64,000 nucleotides of DNA from an uncultured Flavobacteriales bacterium (GTDB taxonomy: Bacteria; Bacteroidota; Bacteroidia; Flavobacteriales_D; Sanyastnellaceae). Below, one piece after another: positions 6,120 to 55,540 of this stretch; the stretch's first letter is position 1, and every line of letters starts with the position of its first letter. A program made the translations under genes and the position numbers. The stretch covers positions 62,001 to 126,000 of the forward strand of contig CALJFZ010000021.1 in NCBI GenBank assembly GCA_938074325.1. The letters run 5' to 3'. Under the pieces are notes generated by a model. It had not been told where the DNA came from, did not search any database, and worked only from the letters and a program-made list of their open reading frames with translations.

Positions 6120-6127
6120 TAGTTTTG
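6120..6127 (+). promoter_or_regulatory. -7 box for the M23 peptidase gene
   Basis: TAGTTTTG matches TAnnTTTG exactly and ends 8 nt before the ATG at 6136, implying a very short or absent leader. It forms a divergent pair with the minus-strand box at 6065-6072. No -33 TTG at normal spacing. Confidence 0.45.
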
Positions 6128-10269: not shown

Positions 10270-11238
10270 CTATCGGTAAATGCGTTCTCGGTTCAACATG
10301 TTTTGGTACGCCCGTGCGTTACGTAGATGTTGATTGTACGTGCGAGCAAAAGCGTGCGTTCCCGAGCCGTCGGGTTTGGCGCACATGTAGATGAAGTTAT
10401 GCTGGGCCGGATCCAAAACGGCTTGTAGGTATACCGGTTCCGGAATGCGGATGGGGCCGGGGGGAAGTCCTGGATTGCGGTAGGTGTTGTAAGGCGAGTC
10501 CACTTTTTTATCCGCATCTAACAGGCGTTGAATCGACCAGTCCCCCAGCGCAAATTTCAGGGTGGGATCTGCCTGGAGCAGCATTTTTTTGTCGAGTCGA
10601 TTTAGGTAGAGGCCAGCGACCATGGGCGCTTCCGATGTCTTTGCGGTCTCTTCTTGAACAATGGATGCAAGGGTGACCACCTCTTGTTGGGAGAGGCCAA
10701 GGGCCCAGGCTTGCTTGAGCCGATCTGCGTTCCACCACGCATTGTATTCCCGCACCAGCCGGTCTGCTAATTCATCCGCAGTGGTTTCCCAGTACACCCT
10801 GTAGGTGTTTGGAACGATGCGCCATTGGATGCTGTCGGCTCCCAAGGCCTGCACAATCGATGCGCTATCGGCCCATATTTTGGGGGCGATTGCCGAAGCG
10901 ATTTCTTCGATGCTGCGTTTGGACGGAACCGTGAGGTTGACCTCTTCCCGCTGACCGGTCGCTATCCGGCGCGCAACTTCGTGGGCCGGTTGCTCACCGA
11001 TCGCGCAATACTTGCCGGGGTATATGCTCCAGCTGCGCCAGGAAATGATCGCCGCAATTTCAGGGTGGTGGCTGGATAGGAAGGCTCGTGCGTCCTCGTT
11101 GGGCGGGATTTTGATGCACCAGTTGGATTCCTCACCGATCAAGTTATTCCATGCCGCGTATTTCGTCCAAACATAGCCTGCGACGCCCACTGCAGCTACG
11201 GCAGCAGCCGTCAGGAATATTTTCAGCGACTTTTTCAT
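10270..11238 (-). CDS. mltG: Endolytic transglycosylase MltG (YceG-like)
   Basis: A 322-residue inner-membrane-anchored enzyme with a short cytoplasmic N-terminus, one transmembrane helix (FLTAAAVAAVGVAGYVW) and a periplasmic YceG domain. The catalytic region LASIVQEETAK contains the conserved Glu, and the family block LYLNRLDKKMLLQADPTL plus NPGLPPGPI follow. MltG cuts nascent glycan strands and so limits their length. The ATG at 11238 overlaps the GNAT stop (ATGA), which fixes the start. Length is slightly short for the family but all key motifs are present. Confidence 0.92.
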   Translation of the reverse strand: MKKSLKIFLTAAAVAAVGVAGYVWTKYAAWNNLIGEESNWCIKIPPNEDARAFLSSHHPEIAAIISWRSWSIYPGKYCAIGEQPAHEVARRIATGQREEVNLTVPSKRSIEEIASAIAPKIWADSASIVQALGADSIQWRIVPNTYRVYWETTADELADRLVREYNAWWNADRLKQAWALGLSQQEVVTLASIVQEETAKTSEAPMVAGLYLNRLDKKMLLQADPTLKFALGDWSIQRLLDADKKVDSPYNTYRNPGLPPGPIRIPEPVYLQAVLDPAQHNFIYMCAKPDGSGTHAFARTYNQHLRNARAYQNMLNRERIYR

Positions 11239-11753
11239 GGTTGCGTACCCAGCCGTTGGAACAACAAGGCGTCTTCCCATTTTGGAGCTCGCCATATCCA
11301 ATCGCGCATGCGGCCGGATTGTTCAAAGCCTTCTGATTCAAACAGCTTGATGCTCTCGGCGTTGCACGCCGGAATTTCAGCCCACAATTGGTGAAGCCCA
11401 AGGTGCCCGAGGGCGTATTCGATCATCAGCTGCAGGCCGGCTTTGGCGTGGCCTCGCTGCCGATGGCATTCCAAGATGGCAATGCCGATTCCGGCGCGTC
11501 GATTTCGCGGTTCGAATTGGTACAAATCCACGGCTCCGACCACATCGCCGTCGGCGGTTTCGAGCATGAGGCGAAGCTGCAAATCCCGGTACAGGTCGTG
11601 CTGACCGCTCGCGTATTGCTCCAAAGTGGCCCTCCCAAAGGGCACGATGGTGGCGCCCAGCCACCACTCAGAGGAGGCATTCTCCAATTGAAACAGCACC
11701 TCGCTGTCACTTGGTTCCAAAGCCCGCAGTACATGCGTGTCGGTTTTCAGCAT
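11235..11753 (-). CDS. GNAT family N-acetyltransferase (RimJ/RimL-like)
   Basis: A 172-residue GCN5-related acetyltransferase of the RimJ/RimL branch. It begins MLKTDTHVLRALEPSDSEVL and shows the acetyl-CoA-binding core IGIAILECHRQRGHAKAGL and the C-terminal NAESIKLFESEGFEQSG motif. RimJ/RimL-like enzymes acetylate N-terminal or side-chain amines; in related Bacteroidota spermidine or protein substrates are annotated, but none can be assigned here. It is first in an operon with mltG (ATGA overlap) and the DUF5916 gene. The ATG at 11753 is chosen because a -7 box ends 5 nt before it; an upstream TTG lies inside the promoter. Confidence 0.85.
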   Translation of the reverse strand: MLKTDTHVLRALEPSDSEVLFQLENASSEWWLGATIVPFGRATLEQYASGQHDLYRDLQLRLMLETADGDVVGAVDLYQFEPRNRRAGIGIAILECHRQRGHAKAGLQLMIEYALGHLGLHQLWAEIPACNAESIKLFESEGFEQSGRMRDWIWRAPKWEDALLFQRLGTQP

Positions 11754-11758
11754 GGGCG

Positions 11759-11766
11759 CAAAGATA
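11759..11766 (-). promoter_or_regulatory. -7 box for the GNAT-mltG operon
   Basis: TATCTTTG, a perfect TAnnTTTG, ends 5 nt before the ATG. It is divergent from the box at 11809-11816 that serves the export lipoprotein. Confidence 0.5.
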
Positions 11767-14234: not shown

Positions 14235-15056
14235 ATGCAGCAGCTCTTGCATACGGCGGTGGATGCGGCTTTAGAAGCGGGACGACGCATCATGGCCATT
14301 TACGCCTCGGGTGACTTTGAGGTGCAGTTGAAAGGGGACGATAGCCCGTTGACCCGCGCTGATGTGGCTTCGCACCGCGCCATCATGGGGAAATTACAGG
14401 ACACTGGCATCCCAGTCCTGTCCGAGGAAGGAAAGGCCATTTCATTTGAGGAGCGCAGCGCTTGGAGTCGTCTGTGGATTGTAGACCCCATTGATGGGAC
14501 CAAGGAGTTCATCAAACGCAACGGGGAGTTCACGGTCAACATTGCCCTCGTCGAGGACGGTGTGCCGGTGATGGGCGTGGTGTTGGTTCCAGCGAAGATG
14601 GAATTGTTTCTCGGTGTGATCGATGCTGACACTGCACGCGCTACGCGAACCGTAGGTGGCGAATTTGCATGGACCCCAACGCAGTGGATAGAGGCAGGGC
14701 AGGCCATCCCGGTTTCAAACCCTGGTCGACCGTTCACGGTGGTGGCGAGCCGCAGCCACATGTCGGCAGAGACGGAGGCGTACATCGCGGAGTTGGAAAA
14801 AGACCACGGAAGCATTGAGACCTTATCCAAGGGGAGTTCCCTGAAATTGTGCATGGTCGCAGCAGGCGAGGCGGACTGCTACCCCCGTTTTGCTCCGACC
14901 ATGGAGTGGGATACGGCCGCGGGCCATGGAGTGTGTTTGGCCGCTGGTTGCGAGGTGTTGGATTGGACGTCCAAAATGCCGTTGGCCTACAATCGCCAAG
15001 AGCTACTCAATCCATGGTTTTTGGTGCGAGGGCCGCGGATGCGGTCATTCAGTTGA
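14235..15056 (+). CDS. cysQ: 3'(2'),5'-bisphosphate nucleotidase CysQ
   Basis: A 273-residue inositol-monophosphatase-fold enzyme that hydrolyses PAP, the by-product of sulfate assimilation or sulfotransfer. The metal-binding motifs SEEGK and WIVDPIDGTKEF and the C-terminal EWDTAAGHGVCLAAG are all present. The ATG at 14235 follows the transglycosylase TGA by one base; a longer in-frame start lies inside that gene. The last 8 bases overlap the end of the convergent CoA-transferase gene. Confidence 0.92.
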   Translation: MQQLLHTAVDAALEAGRRIMAIYASGDFEVQLKGDDSPLTRADVASHRAIMGKLQDTGIPVLSEEGKAISFEERSAWSRLWIVDPIDGTKEFIKRNGEFTVNIALVEDGVPVMGVVLVPAKMELFLGVIDADTARATRTVGGEFAWTPTQWIEAGQAIPVSNPGRPFTVVASRSHMSAETEAYIAELEKDHGSIETLSKGSSLKLCMVAAGEADCYPRFAPTMEWDTAAGHGVCLAAGCEVLDWTSKMPLAYNRQELLNPWFLVRGPRMRSFS

Positions 15057-16107
15057 AGTATTTCACTCTGTAGGCCACGGCCCGGGAGCGAGTCGCTCCG
15101 GAAGGGTTTTCTGTTGTCCACTTGCTGCCTGATCCTTCGAAGACCTCTTGAAGATTGCGCACTACGCCAGCCGGAGCACCAGCTGCACGCAAGGCGAGCT
15201 CGAGTGCCTCTTTGTTCCACTTCTGAGCGCTTTCATCCAACGCTTTCACCAACACACGGCGGTGTTGCACGCGCAACTGATTCGTCCCGAATTCCGGGGC
15301 ATCCAGCAGATCGGAACGCTCCAACACAGTGCAGAGCCCTTCGAATTGCCGGTCGTTGCCCACGGCCAACACCAAGTGCCCATCGGCGCACGTGAGCACG
15401 TCTCCATACGGGGCGATGTTCGGGTGCTCCCCGCCGTTGCGTGTGGGAGTCATTCCCGTGATGAGTTGGTTGGTGGCTTGATTGACCAAGGCTGTAAGGC
15501 CGCTTCCTTCTAAGGATACTTCTGCAAAGAACCCTTTCCGGCCTGCGCTTCGGGCCAACAGTCCCTCGAGGCAGGCCATTCGGATTTGATGCGAGGCAAG
15601 GACGTCCATCAGTGCTACGGGCATTCGGACGGGTGGGCGGTCGGAGAATCCGTTCATGCTCATGAAACCGGTTTCCGCCTGGACGACCACGTCATAGGCC
15701 AGTCGCTCGGGTGCCTCGGCAAATCCCACCAGACGCACGCGGATGAGGTGGGGGTGCCGCCGGGCCAAGTCCTCGGGTGTGAGGTTGAACTTGGCTAAGT
15801 CTGCTGCCTTGTAATTTTCGATGAGCACGTCATGGGAGGCGAGGGCCGCTTCGAGCCAGGCCCGTCCTTCTGGGGAAGTCAAATCTTGCCATGTGACGGT
15901 TTTGTGGCCGTTGGCACTTTCGTAGTACGCAGAAAGTGGGGTTTCTGTCGGCTCTTGGGCTGTCTTCCAACTGCGCGTCACATCGCCGGCAGGGGGGCGT
16001 TCCACTTTGGTCACCTTCGCACCGCGTTCTGCCAAGGCTGTCGCAGCCAACGGCCCGGCGAGCACACTCGCCAATTCCAATACCCGGATTGATTCCAGCG
16101 GACCCAT
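15049..16107 (-). CDS. Class III CoA-transferase (CaiB/Frc/AMACR family)
   Basis: A 352-residue family III CoA-transferase or racemase. The start MGPLESIRVLELASVLAGPLA and the block GAKVTKVERPPAGDVTRSW are typical; the region LIENYKAADLAKFNLTPEDL is the family helix. The catalytic Asp is expected in the VVQAETGFMSMNG region, where an Asp at the usual spot was not clearly seen, so activity is uncertain. Substrate (a carboxylic acid CoA ester) cannot be named. It is 12 bp downstream of the photolyase gene on the same strand and overlaps cysQ tail to tail by 8 bp. It is at the short end of the family. Confidence 0.8.
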   Translation of the reverse strand: MGPLESIRVLELASVLAGPLAATALAERGAKVTKVERPPAGDVTRSWKTAQEPTETPLSAYYESANGHKTVTWQDLTSPEGRAWLEAALASHDVLIENYKAADLAKFNLTPEDLARRHPHLIRVRLVGFAEAPERLAYDVVVQAETGFMSMNGFSDRPPVRMPVALMDVLASHQIRMACLEGLLARSAGRKGFFAEVSLEGSGLTALVNQATNQLITGMTPTRNGGEHPNIAPYGDVLTCADGHLVLAVGNDRQFEGLCTVLERSDLLDAPEFGTNQLRVQHRRVLVKALDESAQKWNKEALELALRAAGAPAGVVRNLQEVFEGSGSKWTTENPSGATRSRAVAYRVKYFN

Positions 16108-16111
16108 GCCG

Positions 16112-16119
16112 CGAAGGTA
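16112..16119 (-). promoter_or_regulatory. Possible -7 box of the CoA-transferase gene
   Basis: TACCTTCG ends 4 nt before the ATG at 16107, within the 12-bp gap after the photolyase stop. The tight gap means chance or dual use cannot be excluded. Confidence 0.35.
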
Positions 16120-27050: not shown

Positions 27051-27058
27051 CAAAAGTA
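27051..27058 (-). promoter_or_regulatory. -7 box of the TonB receptor gene
   Basis: TACTTTTG, a perfect TAnnTTTG, ends 8 nt before the ATG at 27042. Confidence 0.45.
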
Positions 27059-34497: not shown

Positions 34498-34528
34498 TTG
34501 TACACCTCAACGGCCGGGTGTAATTTCG
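34498..34528 (+). promoter_or_regulatory. Promoter of the HAD phosphatase gene
   Basis: TTG at 34498-34500, then exactly 20 bp, then TAATTTCG (34521-34528). This fits the flavobacterial TTG-N17-23-TAnnTTTG form with one change. The ATG follows 4 nt after the box, so the transcript should be leaderless or nearly so. Confidence 0.6.
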
Positions 34529-34532
34529 CGAT

Positions 34533-34997
34533 ATGTCCAAAACCACTGATGCCTCCGGCCGCCCCGGCCAACCCAACGTCGAACTTGAAGCCGTCAAAGA
34601 TGCGCAAGGCCTCCCTGCATCGCCGCAGCTTCCCGCTGACGTCAAGAATTACATGATTGACATCGACGGAACCGTCACTGAGGACGTACCCAACGAAGAG
34701 CCGGAACGCATGGCGACGTGTTTGCCATTTCCAGACGCGCTGGAGACTCTCAACAAGTGGTACGACGAAGGGCACATCATCACCTTCTTTACATCGCGCA
34801 CCGAGGAACATCGGGCGGTTACTGAAGCGTGGTTGGACAAGCACGGTTTCCTGTACCATGGCCTGCTAATGGGCAAGCCAAGGGGAGGAAATTACCACTG
34901 GATTGATAACCACATCGTTCGTGCTACCCGTTACCAAGGCACGTTCAGCGACCTGGTACGCGAGACCGTCGAGATCGAGGTGTTCAAGAAAGACTGA
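34533..34997 (+). CDS. HAD-superfamily phosphatase (LNS2-like)
   Basis: A 154-residue HAD-fold hydrolase. The nucleophile motif is YMIDIDGTVTEDVPNEEPER, motif II is the Thr/Ser of FFTSRTEEHR, and the loop GKPRGGNYHWIDNHI carries the motif III/IV acidic residues. Closely similar flavobacterial proteins are often labelled phosphoheptose isomerase, which does not fit the fold; a phosphatase is more likely. Substrate unknown. It ends 2 bp from the convergent ruvX gene. Confidence 0.8.
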   Translation: MSKTTDASGRPGQPNVELEAVKDAQGLPASPQLPADVKNYMIDIDGTVTEDVPNEEPERMATCLPFPDALETLNKWYDEGHIITFFTSRTEEHRAVTEAWLDKHGFLYHGLLMGKPRGGNYHWIDNHIVRATRYQGTFSDLVRETVEIEVFKKD

Positions 34998-34999
34998 CG

Positions 35000-35434
35000 T
35001 TAGAACGAACGGCCGCGTTCATCCAGAAAGCGCTGCACAATCAACGCTGCGGCCACATCGTCGACCGCGCCCTTTTTCGATCGTTTGGACTTCTTCATTC
35101 CCGATTGAATGGAGGCTTTCAGGGCTTCCTCGCTGGTGTTGGTCTCATCGACCAGCACGACTTCCAGTTCGGGGAATTGTTTTTCGAGTTCGGTACGAAA
35201 GGCTAAAATGGGTTCGGAACTGTGGGTCATGGCACGGCCGCTAGCCACTCCCCAGGCATTCGGGATTCCCAATGCAAATCCCGCACAATCTGCCTCTTTG
35301 ACGAGCCGCTTCAGTTCGTCCATTAATTCCGCGGTCGGCACCGTCCTGTGAGGAAAGGCGAGCATGGCTGCACCGTCGGTGTATGCCAATCCGGTGCGAG
35401 CGCCTCCATAATCAATGCCTATCCATCGGCCCAT
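35000..35434 (-). CDS. ruvX: Pre-16S rRNA-processing nuclease RuvX/YqgF
   Basis: A 144-residue RNase H-like nuclease that trims the 5' end of 16S rRNA precursor. Motifs: GIDYGGARTGLAYTD at the N-terminus, ALGIPNAWG, VVLVDETNTSEEA and the C-terminal DDVAAALIVQRFL with the last acidic pair. Most family members have GDKRIG after the first Asp; here it is GGARTG, as in Bacteroidota. The ATG at 35434 is set by the motif. It is divergent from the GT9 gene. Confidence 0.9.
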   Translation of the reverse strand: MGRWIGIDYGGARTGLAYTDGAAMLAFPHRTVPTAELMDELKRLVKEADCAGFALGIPNAWGVASGRAMTHSSEPILAFRTELEKQFPELEVVLVDETNTSEEALKASIQSGMKKSKRSKKGAVDDVAAALIVQRFLDERGRSF

Positions 35435-35438
35435 GCCG

Positions 35439-35445
35439 CAAGGTA
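35439..35445 (-). promoter_or_regulatory. Possible -7 box of ruvX
   Basis: TACCTTG ends 4 nt before the ATG; one base shorter than the consensus. It faces away from the GT9 promoter within a 55-bp gap. Confidence 0.35.
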
Positions 35446-35477
35446 CACCGCAAGCCGCTTGCCACCCGCACACCGCT

Positions 35478-35485
35478 TATCTTCG
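35478..35485 (+). promoter_or_regulatory. -7 box of the GT9 gene
   Basis: TATCTTCG ends 4 nt before the ATG at 35490; a TTG at 35459-35461 lies 16 bp upstream of the box. Confidence 0.5.
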
Positions 35486-35489
35486 TGCC

Positions 35490-36485
35490 ATGCCTCTGGT
35501 GCGTAAAGTCCTTTTCATTCAAACCGCCTTCATCGGTGACGCCATCCTGGCTTCAGCGCTTTGGGAGGATTGGCATCGTACCCATCCGGAAGATGAATTG
35601 CACATATGCGTGCGGAAAGGCAATGAAACGTTGTTCAAAGGCCATCCCTTTTTGAGGGGCGTGCACACCTGGGACAAATCAGGAGGGGGCGCGGCGCGGT
35701 ATGGCCGGTTGACGACGTTGGGAAGGTTATTGCGCCGAGAAAGGTTCGACGTGGTCATCACCCCGCACCGCCATGCAAGTTCGGGCTGGCTAGCGTGGCG
35801 AAGCGGTGCGAGCATTCGGGTGGCATTTGACGTCCACCCATTGAAGGGACTCTTCACCCACACAGTCCCGCACAGTTTTGACGAAGGCTTGCATGAAACG
35901 GAACGAAACCACCGATTGATTGCTGAATGGACCGAAAGGGAGGGCATGCCGAAGCCGCACTTGTACCCTGCAGCCACGAGCATGGCTCGAGGGCAGTATG
36001 CGGTCTTAACACCAGCCAGTCAATGGGCGACCAAGCAATGGCCCGAACCGCAATGGGTGCAGCTCTGCGATGCGTTGACCGATGAGGTGTCGGCCCTGAC
36101 GCTGCTGGGCGGTCCATCGGATTCCGACTTGCTGCAACGCATCGCGAAGGCCAGTATCCACCCGGCCATTCAAGTTGTCACGGATGCATCCCTGCTGGAG
36201 TCAGCAGGCATCATCTCCAACGCAGAGTTCGTCGTCACCAACGACAGCGGCCCCATGCATTTGGCTTCTGCGGTCAATGCCCCGACCGTCGCTGTGTTTT
36301 GTTCGACGGTGCCGGCCTTTGGGTTCGGACCGCTGGCCGATCGTTCCGTGGTGGTTGAAACGCAGGAGACGCTGCCGTGTCGTCCGTGTGGAATCCACGG
36401 TAAAACCCGCTGTCCTTTGGAACATTTTAGCTGTGGGTCTGGGATATCAGTTGCTCAGGTATTGCGGGCCATCCGCGTGCTCTGA
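35490..36485 (+). CDS. Glycosyltransferase family 9 (ADP-heptose:LPS heptosyltransferase type)
   Basis: A 331-residue GT-B fold enzyme that transfers heptose to the lipopolysaccharide core. The start KVLFIQTAFIGDAILASAL is diagnostic, followed by YAVLTPASQWATKQWPEPQW, LTLLGGPSDSDL, and the donor site VTNDSGPMHLASAVNAPTVAVF. The ATG at 35490 is set by both the family start and the promoter box 4 nt upstream; an earlier ATG lies within the ruvX promoter region. The C-terminal CRPCGIHGKTRCPLEHFSC cluster of cysteines is common in this family. Confidence 0.92.
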   Translation: MPLVRKVLFIQTAFIGDAILASALWEDWHRTHPEDELHICVRKGNETLFKGHPFLRGVHTWDKSGGGAARYGRLTTLGRLLRRERFDVVITPHRHASSGWLAWRSGASIRVAFDVHPLKGLFTHTVPHSFDEGLHETERNHRLIAEWTEREGMPKPHLYPAATSMARGQYAVLTPASQWATKQWPEPQWVQLCDALTDEVSALTLLGGPSDSDLLQRIAKASIHPAIQVVTDASLLESAGIISNAEFVVTNDSGPMHLASAVNAPTVAVFCSTVPAFGFGPLADRSVVVETQETLPCRPCGIHGKTRCPLEHFSCGSGISVAQVLRAIRVL

Positions 36486-50492: not shown

Positions 50493-50822
50493 TTAAAGAT
50501 ACGGCAACAACTCGACCGGGTCGATGTTCGAATGATTTGCGTGGTGCAGTGCTTTGCCATCGCGGATGAGCACCATTTGCGGGCTCTGGTGTTCGATTCC
50601 GAGGTCCTCCGCAATGGCCTGGCTCACGTCCCGGTGGTTGAGCAAATCCAACATGAAAGCGATGGTGTTTTCGGGCAATTCCCAGCGTTGCTGCGTCAAT
50701 TTCAGTGCCATGCGGCTGATGCTGCACCGGGTGCTGTGCTTAAACACCACCACGGGCGAAGTATGTGAGGCCTCCACGGCTTGTTTCCAATCTTCCAAGG
50801 AATCCAATGCGTTCCAATCCAT
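50493..50822 (-). CDS. ytxJ: Bacillithiol system thioredoxin-like protein YtxJ
   Basis: A 109-residue thioredoxin-fold protein of the YtxJ (DUF2847) family, a monothiol bacilliredoxin-like partner of bacillithiol. The active-site segment is VVFKHSTRCSISRMAL, with a single Cys, followed by LLNHRDVSQAIAEDLGI and the cis-Pro-like SPQMVLIRDGKALHH. It would remove bacillithiol from mixed disulfides, by analogy to monothiol glutaredoxins. bshC at 32953 supports this. It is the first gene of the ytxJ-pRiA4b-miaA-mutS2 unit. Confidence 0.88.
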   Translation of the reverse strand: MDWNALDSLEDWKQAVEASHTSPVVVFKHSTRCSISRMALKLTQQRWELPENTIAFMLDLLNHRDVSQAIAEDLGIEHQSPQMVLIRDGKALHHANHSNIDPVELLPYL

Positions 50823-50829
50823 CTTGCGG

Positions 50830-50837
50830 TAAATTTG
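50830..50837 (+). promoter_or_regulatory. -7 box of the 50858 membrane protein gene
   Basis: TAAATTTG, a perfect TAnnTTTG, ends 20 nt before the ATG. It sits 4 bp from the opposite-strand box at 50842-50849, so the two promoters overlap. Confidence 0.45.
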
Positions 50838-50841
50838 GCCT

Positions 50842-50849
50842 CAAAATTA
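50842..50849 (-). promoter_or_regulatory. -7 box of the ytxJ-miaA-mutS2 unit
   Basis: TAATTTTG on the minus strand, a perfect TAnnTTTG, ends 19 nt before the ytxJ ATG within a 35-bp divergent gap. Confidence 0.45.
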
Positions 50850-50857
50850 CCCCGTCC

Positions 50858-51391
50858 ATGGACACGCGATTCATAAAAATTCCTCTGGCCGCAGCGAGTT
50901 TGGCCTACGCCGTTTACCTCTTCACTGTGGGACAAATTGGATCGGGAGTCGGTATGGTCCTGGTCACGGCTGTTTTGGTGCTCATCACGCTCCAAAGCAT
51001 GCGTTTGCTGATGGCATTTGTGAGCTTGCGTCAGCAGAAGATGGACGATGCACGGAACTGGTTGGGCCGGGTGAACCCCAATCATTTGTGGCCGCGGCGT
51101 CGCGGCTATTGGTACTTCCTGTCGGGAAGCATGATGATGGAGCACAACATGAACGAGGCAGAGCGTTTGCTCAAGCAGGCGTTGGAAATTGGGTTGAAGC
51201 AAGACCACGATAAAGCCGCGGTCAAACTGAACCTTGCTGTCGTGGCTTCCGCCAAGCGCAAGACTAAATTGGCCAAAGCCCTGCTCACAGAATGCAAGCG
51301 CCTCGATGCCAAAGGGGTGTTGAAGAAGGACATCAAGCAAGTGGAAGCGGCCATCCGCAGCCCACAGCAGATGCGCATGCGCGGGCGTTAA
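50858..51391 (+). CDS. Small two-helix membrane protein with TPR-like tail
   Basis: A 177-residue protein: two transmembrane helices within residues 6-60 (IPLAAASLAYAVYLFTVG; VGMVLVTAVLVLITLQSM) and a cytoplasmic helical tail in which NEAERLLKQALEIGLKQDHD, AAVKLNLAVVASAKRKTK and LAKALLTECKRLDAKGV look like two TPR-type hairpins. No named family was recognised. It is divergent from ytxJ. Its TAA overlaps the stop of the convergent gene by 4 bases. Confidence 0.82.
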   Translation: MDTRFIKIPLAAASLAYAVYLFTVGQIGSGVGMVLVTAVLVLITLQSMRLLMAFVSLRQQKMDDARNWLGRVNPNHLWPRRRGYWYFLSGSMMMEHNMNEAERLLKQALEIGLKQDHDKAAVKLNLAVVASAKRKTKLAKALLTECKRLDAKGVLKKDIKQVEAAIRSPQQMRMRGR

Positions 51392-53896: not shown

Positions 53897-53904
53897 TATC
53901 TTCG
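53897..53904 (+). promoter_or_regulatory. -7 box of the FAD oxidoreductase gene
   Basis: TATCTTCG ends 4 nt before the ATG at 53909, the same arrangement as for the GT9 gene at 35490. Confidence 0.48.
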
Positions 53905-53908
53905 CACC

Positions 53909-55540
53909 ATGAAACCCGCCAATTCAAGGGAAAAAATCGAAGGACGCAAAGCACCCGATGCATCCCGGTTGGTGGACATTCGGTTCCCGGTTCAAGTGAG
54001 TGGCGACCCCGCACGGGTACGCCAAGCCATTGCCAAAACTTTAGGGTGCCGGGTCGATGCCATCTCCGATTACAGGGTGATGCGGAAGAACCTCGATGCG
54101 CGCAAGCGCCCCGTGCTTGCCATGTGGCGGGTGGAGGTCGCGCTGGAGGATGAGGTGTTGCCGCCCAACGAACCAGCCGTTACAAACTTTTCCGCCTTGC
54201 CCGAAGACGCACGCGCCGTACACATTGTGGGGGCAGGCCCAGCAGGGCTGTACGCGGCATTGTCCTTGATTCAACACGGGCTCCGTCCCGTCATCATCGA
54301 ACGCGGACAGCCGGTGCGTCAACGCCGACGGGACCTGGTGAGCATCACGCGTGAACACCGCGTTGATCCGGATTCGAATTACTGCTTTGGTGAAGGAGGC
54401 GCGGGTACCTACAGCGACGGCAAATTGTACACGCGCAGCCACAAACGCGGGGACATCCGAGGTGCCTTGGAATGGTTGGTTCAATTCGGTGCGGACCCGT
54501 CGATTTTGGTCGATGCCCACCCGCACATCGGGACGAATAAGTTGCCCCAGATCATCGAGCGCATGCGGGAGGCAGTTGTGGCCGCAGGGGGGCATGTGCA
54601 TTTCGGAAGCCGGGTAGTGGACATCACCGCACCAAGCGGGCGGGTCGAAGCCTTGGAATGGGTCGACAGTGCGACCGGAGAACGCACGCGAGCGGAAGCC
54701 CAGCATGTGATCCTCGCCACCGGCCACAGTGCACGGGATGTATTCGAGTTGGTCGATTCAAAAGGATGGACATTGGAGGCCAAACCTTTCGCGATGGGTG
54801 TGCGCATCGAACATCCGCAAACCCTCATCGATGCCATTCAATACCACGGCGAGGAGCGCGGGGAAGTGCTGCCACCGGCATCGTATCGCCTGGTGTGTCA
54901 AGCCAATGGTCGTGGCGTTCATTCGTTCTGCATGTGTCCCGGCGGAATCGTCGCACCGTGCGCGACGGAGCAGGAGCAGGTGGTGACCAATGGTTGGTCA
55001 CCGTCCAAGCGCAACAACCCCTACGCGAACTCCGGCATGGTCGTGCAGTTGGAGCCGGCTGATTGGGAGGCGCTGGGATTCCGCGGCGTCCTGGGAGGGT
55101 TGGCATTTCAACGCCACGTCGAACGAATTTGCTGGGAAGCAGCTGGACAGAGCCAGCGTGCGCCCGCTCAACGTTTGGCGGACTTTTTGGCCAGTAAAAG
55201 AGGGCGAGTGTCCAAGCATCTGCCAACCTGTTCTTACGTGCCCGGCGTCGTTTCGGTCAACCTGCGGGAACTTCTTCCAGCCGTCATTTCGGATGCCCTA
55301 GCGAAGGGGCTCGCCACCTTTGGCAAGCGCATGCCGCGTTACCTTGATCAGGACGCGTTGTTGATTGCTCCGGAATCTAGGACTTCGAGCCCTGTTCGAA
55401 TTCCACGCGACCGCGAAAACTTGATGCATCCGGATGTGAACGGGCTGTTTCCTTGCGGGGAAGGCGGGGGCTATGCAGGCGGGATTTTATCAGCGGCTTT
55501 GGATGGTATGCGGGTTGCAGCTGCAATCGCCGCAAAATGA
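53909..55540 (+). CDS. NAD(P)/FAD-dependent oxidoreductase (FAD-dependent protein family)
   Basis: A 543-residue flavoprotein. An N-terminal domain of about 95 residues (IRFPVQVSGDPARVRQAIAK; YRVMRKNLDARKRPVLAMW) resembles the RNA-binding-like start of this family, then comes the FAD site VHIVGAGPAGLYAALSLIQHG, the loop NYCFGEGGAGTYSDGKLYTR, and the C-terminal FPCGEGGGYAGGILSAALDG. Such long FAD-dependent proteins are widespread and unassigned. The substrate is unknown. It is divergent from the E1 gene and ends in a hairpin that also serves the opposite strand. Confidence 0.85.
   Translation: MKPANSREKIEGRKAPDASRLVDIRFPVQVSGDPARVRQAIAKTLGCRVDAISDYRVMRKNLDARKRPVLAMWRVEVALEDEVLPPNEPAVTNFSALPEDARAVHIVGAGPAGLYAALSLIQHGLRPVIIERGQPVRQRRRDLVSITREHRVDPDSNYCFGEGGAGTYSDGKLYTRSHKRGDIRGALEWLVQFGADPSILVDAHPHIGTNKLPQIIERMREAVVAAGGHVHFGSRVVDITAPSGRVEALEWVDSATGERTRAEAQHVILATGHSARDVFELVDSKGWTLEAKPFAMGVRIEHPQTLIDAIQYHGEERGEVLPPASYRLVCQANGRGVHSFCMCPGGIVAPCATEQEQVVTNGWSPSKRNNPYANSGMVVQLEPADWEALGFRGVLGGLAFQRHVERICWEAAGQSQRAPAQRLADFLASKRGRVSKHLPTCSYVPGVVSVNLRELLPAVISDALAKGLATFGKRMPRYLDQDALLIAPESRTSSPVRIPRDRENLMHPDVNGLFPCGEGGGYAGGILSAALDGMRVAAAIAAK

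Follow-up and report, generated by a model that had tools for sequence, protein, structure and literature searches.

A Bacteroidota -7 promoter box set directly before start codons predicts many leaderless genes in a Flavobacteriales genome

Introduction

A 64,000 nt stretch of contig CALJFZ010000021.1 (hereafter the window), from assembly GCA_938074325.1 of an uncultured Flavobacteriales bacterium, holds a HAD-like gene whose start codon lies 4 nt behind a copy of the promoter-like box TAnnTTYG. An earlier note on this DNA had seen the same arrangement at several other genes. The locus raises the question of what such a box does so close to an ATG: whether it is a promoter from which transcripts without a leader begin and, if so, how common this placement is in the genome.

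In the sigma-A promoters of Bacteroidota the -7 box is TAnnTTTG, accompanied by a -33 TTTG (PMC6847099, PMC9723704; papers cited by PMC number are drawn on here from parts of their texts). Among 434 candidate promoters of Flavobacterium johnsoniae, the 241 whose box lies 4 or 5 nt from the transcription start were deemed probable (PMC6847099); the earlier note likewise states that transcription begins a few bases downstream of this element. By that spacing, transcription from a box 4 nt before an ATG would start at the A or next to it.

The pattern is real, genome-wide and conserved in the genus. On the evidence of the sequence, the box is very probably the sigma-A -7 element with the start codon at the transcription start in a large share of promoters, and the genes behind it are predicted to be leaderless. 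RNA polymerase with a housekeeping sigma factor of the sigma-A/sigma-ABfr type would contact TAnnTTYG, transcription would begin 4–5 nt past the box, at or one base from the A of the start codon, and translation would begin at the 5' AUG of the resulting messenger RNA (mRNA), which would have no 5' untranslated region (UTR). Another group of genes would use the same box 15–60 nt upstream and have ordinary short AT-rich leaders.

Results

The spacing between box and start codon has a sharp peak throughout the genome

A perfect box is defined as TAnnTTYG, the TTCG form having been added in this analysis to the published TTTG. In the whole assembly (2,153,914 bases in 59 contigs, 88% complete) the box followed after 4 nt by ATG (box-N4-ATG) occurs 120 times, compared with 42 times for the reversed-pattern control; with 10 nt between them, a control in the same reading phase (box-N10-ATG), there are 17 occurrences (reversed control, 10). 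Genes were called in a sample of 864 kb of the 2,154 kb (40% of the genome), made up of the window and forty 20-kb stretches, and the gene-based counts for this genome given below refer to this sample. Starts were chosen by coding score alone, ignoring upstream sequence, and both versions of the gene caller give the same near-start peak.

The distances from box to start fall into a sharp mode at 4–6 nt, few cases at 7–14 nt and a second mode at 15–60 nt. The peak can be counted without gene calls: an ATG stands at offset 4 in 51 of 417 boxes, and the other offsets from 0 to 30 give 4–16, which bears out the claim that exactly 4 nt is the commonest spacing. The remaining start triplets at offset 4 are 10 GTG (mean at other offsets, 4.8) and 4 TTG. 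Of 222 divergent genes, 18 have a box at 4 nt, seven at 5 nt and three at 6 nt; column permutation yields a mean of 0.98 and a maximum of 4 in 200 permutations for the 4 nt class. Non-internal genes, i.e. those that are divergent or begin at least 15 nt behind a same-strand gene, were counted where they start with ATG (n = 447): 48 have a box at 3–6 nt (1.0 expected; referred to as near boxes) and 77 at 15–60 nt (10.6 expected; the leadered class). Spacings of 7–14 nt are rare in these genes yet above expectation (10 against 1.7), and the boxes 8 nt before the M23 peptidase and TonB-receptor genes of the window, recorded in the earlier note and present in the sequence, are of this kind.

Within the window box-N4-ATG has four matches against a mean of 0.48 in 100 shuffles, none of which reaches 4. 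The box alone is not enriched there (23 against 28.8 expected), so that its position is the unusual signal. The near boxes (n = 32) have G in 6% at position 3 and in 0% at position 4, as in TAHHTTTG; these two free positions are the informative ones, the fixed positions being imposed by the search. C stands at position 7 in 41%, TTCG being about as usual as TTTG.

The spacing is largely conserved between congeners

Comparison of this genome with a congener (G349) gives 143 reciprocal best pairs with a median identity of 78%. The near box is kept in the congener, at 4–6 nt, for 12 of 13 near-box genes; in the 13th pair the called protein of the congener is 17 residues longer and the matching ATG lies outside the comparison. 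In the reverse direction, 16 near-box genes of the congener fall into pairs, with partners in this genome that have a near box (12), a box at 15–60 nt (2) or neither (2). The spacing from box to ATG is identical in nine of the 12 pairs. Upstream identity is 0.35–0.55 and rises to ~ 0.75 over the box, compared with 0.38–0.57 throughout in 64 other pairs, and in 12 of the 13 pairs both proteins are aligned from their first residue onwards.

Three genes of the window were followed through the family, using the 20 best-scoring loci from the 32 (HAD), 40 (GT9, glycosyltransferase family 9) and 41 (FAD-dependent protein) genomes with a match. A perfect box stands 3–7 nt before an in-frame ATG in 5/20 HAD, 6/20 GT9 and 12/20 FAD loci, counts for which several ATGs per locus were tried, slightly raising the chance of spurious matches. 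These loci always include this genome and its three congeners. The HAD box is perfect and 4–5 nt before the ATG in this genome and in all three congeners examined. All six perfect GT9 boxes lie at exactly 4 nt; in two genomes (G342, a more distant member of the family, and G374) the ATG is 36 and 15 nt upstream of the aligned residue and the box has shifted along with it. The FAD boxes lie at 4 nt (8), 5 nt (3) and 7 nt (1); here too the N-termini differ and the box moves with the ATG.

The exact start nucleotide and the translation of AUG-first mRNAs are what we infer from this arrangement. Transcription could instead begin slightly off the A of the ATG: either before it, leaving leaders of 1–5 nt, or just inside the codon, in which case translation would use an in-frame codon further on. 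The two box-to-start spacings of F. johnsoniae, 4 or 5 nt (PMC6847099), and the occurrence here of box-to-ATG spacings of 5, 6 and 8 nt speak for such an offset. It is nevertheless improbable: boxes stand most often at exactly 4 nt, a spacing that is largely conserved, the start triplet found at that offset is mostly ATG, and the orthologous proteins nearly always align from their first residues.

The box belongs mainly to genes that could open an operon

Genes that start less than 15 nt behind a same-strand gene are taken as internal to an operon. A box at 3–6 nt is found in 4/170 internal genes, against the 48/447 of the non-internal class (Fisher p = 5e-4), and the counts for internal genes at 3–6, 7–14 and 15–60 nt are 4, 0 and 4. 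The count by distance from the start codon, proposed in the earlier note together with the comparison of first and internal genes, has a sharp near peak, and the permutation, N10 and internal-gene controls all lie below the observed values. The claim that genes inside operons lack the box holds for most of them; the exceptions are the four internal genes with a near box, and the CoA-transferase gene of the window, cited for its box, itself starts 12 nt behind a same-strand photolyase gene. Together with the genus conservation, this bias with operon position and the spacing peak support the suggestion of the earlier note that many mRNAs here may start at or next to the AUG.

The same counts bear on whether the box could be a translation signal, contacted by the ribosome or by protein S1, rather than a promoter. 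Its fixed short distance from the start codon would fit such a role, and boxes with one mismatch are slightly enriched in internal genes (9/166 of those without a perfect box, at 4–5 nt; control spacings, 0–4). Internal genes, however, need translation and no promoter, yet mostly go without a perfect box; a second mode of the same box lies at 15–60 nt; and its sequence is the -7 promoter consensus established for the phylum. We consider a translation signal very unlikely, and the view of the earlier note that the box is no ribosome site is upheld.

Chance, base composition or starts picked with the box in view have next to no likelihood as the source of the perfect-box pattern, even though the motif is short and degenerate and the first examples were picked by eye with mismatches allowed, since coding score was the sole basis for choosing starts, the peak reappears when boxes are counted without gene calls, and the N10 control, the permutations and the orthologue conservation all disagree. 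For perfect boxes chance is refuted; for many one-mismatch boxes it stands.

The earlier note had also listed boxes with one change or one missing base. As a class these are weak: a box with at most one mismatch lies at 4–5 nt in 24/399 non-internal genes without a perfect near box, hardly above the 2–21 of the control spacings, and the class was rejected as unreliable. Of the single changes, only those at box positions 1 and 8 seem enriched at 4–6 nt. Four of the nine internal one-mismatch genes have the last box base changed, at 4 nt. The nine may reflect internal promoters or something else.

Sigma factor and start context

The RpoD-like protein encoded in the genome is 289 amino acids long. 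Its best NCBIfam models are RpoD, with scores below the full-length cut-offs, and it aligns to the C-terminal part only, 393–629 of 631, of the best model. Identity to its best 80 genome matches, largely Flavobacteriales, is 72–86%; the best named match, from a metagenome-assembled genome of Flavobacteriales, is 86% identical. These matches place the organism most likely in or close to Flavobacteriales; a search of the bin for 16S rRNA gave no match. By these alignments it is a predicted short RpoD without region 1.1, of the sigma-ABfr kind.

Upstream of the start codon the 30-mers of leadered genes are AT-rich, with a guanine plus cytosine (GC) content of 0.43; leaderless genes have 0.52, close to the genomic 0.54, as expected if the DNA there is not transcribed for the gene. 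Predicted structure around the start is weaker in leadered genes than in leaderless ones (-3.6 against -4.8 kcal/mol, p = 0.009). Position +4 is occupied by A less often in leaderless genes (18/51) than in internal ones (90/166; p = 0.02). Shine-Dalgarno (SD)-like 4-mers are not enriched before leaderless genes (3/52, shuffled mean 2.6), nor in all 649 genes of the sample (47, shuffled mean 51.4), and hence do not discriminate.

Several observations weigh against leaderless initiation from a sigma-A promoter or limit its reach. A -33 TTG is not enriched: at spacers of 17–23 there are eight occurrences among 47 near boxes, the chance rate, and 13 among 80 boxes at 15–60 nt, which is about or below chance. 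The TTG reported 20 bp before the HAD box is present, and in F. johnsoniae, too, the -33 element is much less evident (PMC6847099). Weaker structure at the 5' end of leaderless genes was sought and rejected: over the first 40 nt they show no less structure than internal genes (-5.0 against -5.9, p = 0.16) and more than leadered genes (-5.0 against -4.1, p = 0.007). A C(-1)A(+1) initiator signature was also rejected, as C at -1 is general in the genome (internal 56%, leadered 61%, near-box 80%) and so is no evidence. A promoter is not expected at the nine internal genes with a one-mismatch box, and the few internal genes with a near box belong with them. Conservation fades beyond the genus: no box with up to one mismatch lies 3–7 nt before an in-frame ATG, the one start codon tried, in 12/20 HAD, 13/20 GT9 and 8/20 FAD loci, none of which belongs to the genus. 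Among 39 pairs with G342 the sole near-box gene of this genome has its box at 15–60 nt there, and near-box genes of G342 have partners here with neither class (3) or with a box at 15–60 nt (1).

C at -1 stands before 12% of internal and 20% of leadered genes in low-GC named loci, against 56% and 61% here. In this genome this start-codon context is independent of leaderless status.

Features of the window

The five perfect boxes listed in the earlier note, before the HAD, GT9, FAD, CoA-transferase and GNAT genes, are all present at the spacings it gave (Table 1). The Pfam match of the HAD-like gene is to a domain that we take to be related to HAD. For the M23 and TonB-receptor genes a leader of ~ 4 nt each is probably to be expected from box position. 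The gene at 472–1539 is SerC by NCBIfam.

Table 1. Promoter-like boxes of the window and the genes behind them.
Feature	Position	Strand	Remarks
TAATTTCG (-7-type box)	34521..34528	+	Perfect; ends 4 nt before HAD start (ATG 34533)
TTG	34498..34500	+	20 bp upstream of HAD box
HAD-like gene	34533..34997	+	Predicted leaderless; sole Pfam match is LNS2 domain
TATCTTCG box	35478..35485	+	Perfect; 4 nt before GT9 start
Glycosyltransferase family 9 gene (GT9)	35490..36485	+	Predicted leaderless; Pfam
TACCTTG, seven-base variant box	35439..35445	-	4 nt before ruvX
ruvX	35000..35434	-	Probably leaderless via variant box; RuvX by Pfam
TATCTTCG box	53897..53904	+	Perfect; 4 nt before FAD-dependent protein gene
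FAD-dependent protein gene	53909..55540	+	Predicted leaderless; name supported by domain search
TACCTTCG box	16112..16119	-	4 nt before CoA-transferase gene; immediately after photolyase stop codon
CoA-transferase family III gene	15049..16107	-	Predicted leaderless; Pfam
TATCTTTG box	11759..11766	-	Perfect; 5 nt before GNAT gene
GNAT acetyltransferase gene	11235..11753	-	Predicted leaderless; Pfam
TAGTTTTG box	6120..6127	+	8 nt before M23 peptidase gene (M23 by Pfam)
TACTTTTG box	27051..27058	-	8 nt before TonB-receptor gene (TonB plug by Pfam)

ruvX and GT9 are divergent, with 55 bp between the genes. The ruvX variant, one of the imperfect boxes of the earlier note, looks real from its conservation: in all five loci inspected (this genome and four others, out of six) the divergent neighbour, identified as ruvX in this genome only, has TAnnTTG (4) or a full TACCTTCG (1) at the same place. 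The three congeners are among those with TAnnTTG there. This form resembles the SM5 box, TAnnTTGY, of Flavobacterium psychrophilum, which its authors tied to an alternative sigma factor (PMC9723704).

The 35 bp between two divergent genes (50493–50822, minus strand; 50858–51391, plus strand) hold two promoter boxes that face each other at 50830–50849, TAAATTTG gcct CAAAATTA, so placed that each predicted transcription start falls at or beside the opposite box. Such pairs were considered as a general architecture and set aside: just five with a spacing of up to 20 occur in the 864 kb.

Leaderless placement is graded across genomes

Of the perfect boxes up to 60 nt before a start, the background-subtracted fraction sitting at 3–6 nt was taken as the share of leaderless placement; it covers recognisable (perfect-box) promoters, not all genes. 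It amounts to 0.39 (0.29–0.48) in this genome, 0.42 (0.28–0.58) in the congener G349 and 0.27 (0.14–0.41) in G342, compared with 0.09 (0.01–0.17) in a low-GC class-mate (G154) and 0.06 (0.02–0.11) in 59 named low-GC loci, mostly flavobacterial. About 39% (29–48%) of the recognisable promoters within 60 nt are thus predicted to be of the leaderless type here, against 6–9% in the low-GC comparison sets. As a calibration, the value of 0.06 agrees with the fractions from mapped transcription start sites (TSS) in F. psychrophilum, 5.5% leaderless (PMC9723704), and Bacteroides thetaiotaomicron, ~ 3.7% with a UTR < 10 nt (PMC7366714). RNA-seq predictions for F. johnsoniae give 13% with leaders of at most 10 nt (PMC6847099).

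Scans for box-N4-ATG and box-N10-ATG were extended to 353 distinct genomes (296 from the phylum, 60 from the order), and 139 rows were compared. The highest ratios of N4 to N10 belong to G342 (174 against 13), this genome (120 against 17) and G352 (142 against 21). The median excess of box-N4-ATG per Mb is 34 in the family of this genome (f1), 37 in a related family (f2), 16 in f24 and 10 in f6. Judged by these counts leaderless placement is graded, and among the 139 rows it is strongest in f1 and f2. Family f24, which lies outside this class, has genomes with a similar N4 excess (G136, 73 against 12; G144, 76 against 14) and is possibly an independent case.

In the eight genomes of family f1 the excess per Mb rises with GC (Spearman 0.88), a correlation confounded by kinship, as three of the points are congeners and two share a genus. 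The higher-GC named loci do not confirm the trend: at offset 4 there are three ATG in those with GC of at least 0.46 (5 loci; mean of other offsets, 1.6) and four in those with GC 0.42–0.46 (16 loci; mean of other offsets, 5.8). We put forward tentatively, with rather more doubt than belief, that leaderless initiation may have become a main and conserved mode in families f1 and f2 because a GC-rich genome without SD pairing could hardly keep leaders unfolded, so that a gene would have either an AT-rich leader or none. The AT-rich upstream regions of leadered genes, not shared by leaderless ones, fit this reading.

Discussion

Bacteroidota are described, in the parts of the literature available here, as hardly using SD sequences and as having few leaderless mRNAs (PMC6847099, PMC9723704, PMC7366714, PMC3160421). 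Roughly two in five recognisable promoters predicted to abut the start codon would change this picture. The placement would provide a promoter-based handle on gene starts in relatives, and would let promoters fit into very short gaps such as that between ruvX and GT9. Variation of leaderless use within one phylum also becomes testable, with genome GC as a concrete candidate cause.

Table 2 of Zheng et al. (2011) has 1/37 Bacteroidetes/Chlorobi genomes, at 2.4% (PMC3160421). Their method sees Pribnow-like promoters only and may undercount Bacteroidetes, although high percentages were thought unlikely to be missed (PMC3160421); the Bacteroidota lineage of this genome looks like such a missed case. 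The StartLink paper, citing GeneMarkS-2, reports FCB-group genomes with AT-rich non-canonical ribosome-binding sites (PMC9581028). A literature search in partial texts, with subscription papers and preprints outside it, gave no report of leaderless genes as a main mode in any lineage of Bacteroidota.

The leaderless genes of Actinobacteria and Deinococcus-Thermus carry a TAnnnT box ~ 12 bp before the start (PMC3160421). They share with the genes predicted here a promoter box set close to the ATG at a constant spacing, mainly at genes that may be first in an operon; here, however, the box is the Bacteroidota -7 element, not a Pribnow-type one, and the phylum barely uses SD pairing. Compared with the known sigma-A promoters of Bacteroidota, the -7 box, the near absence of G at its free positions and the short RpoD-like sigma factor are the same, whereas here TTCG is about as usual as TTTG, no -33 TTG is detectable and often no leader would be left. 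The leaderless mRNAs of B. thetaiotaomicron, F. psychrophilum and F. johnsoniae come from the same phylum, with the same box and a presumed start 4–5 nt downstream. The parts of the system are known, but its predicted abundance is unmatched in these three measured species, as far as the consulted parts of their reports go: they have 3.7–13% leaderless mRNAs, and the ~ 39% estimated here, from box position alone, is several times more.

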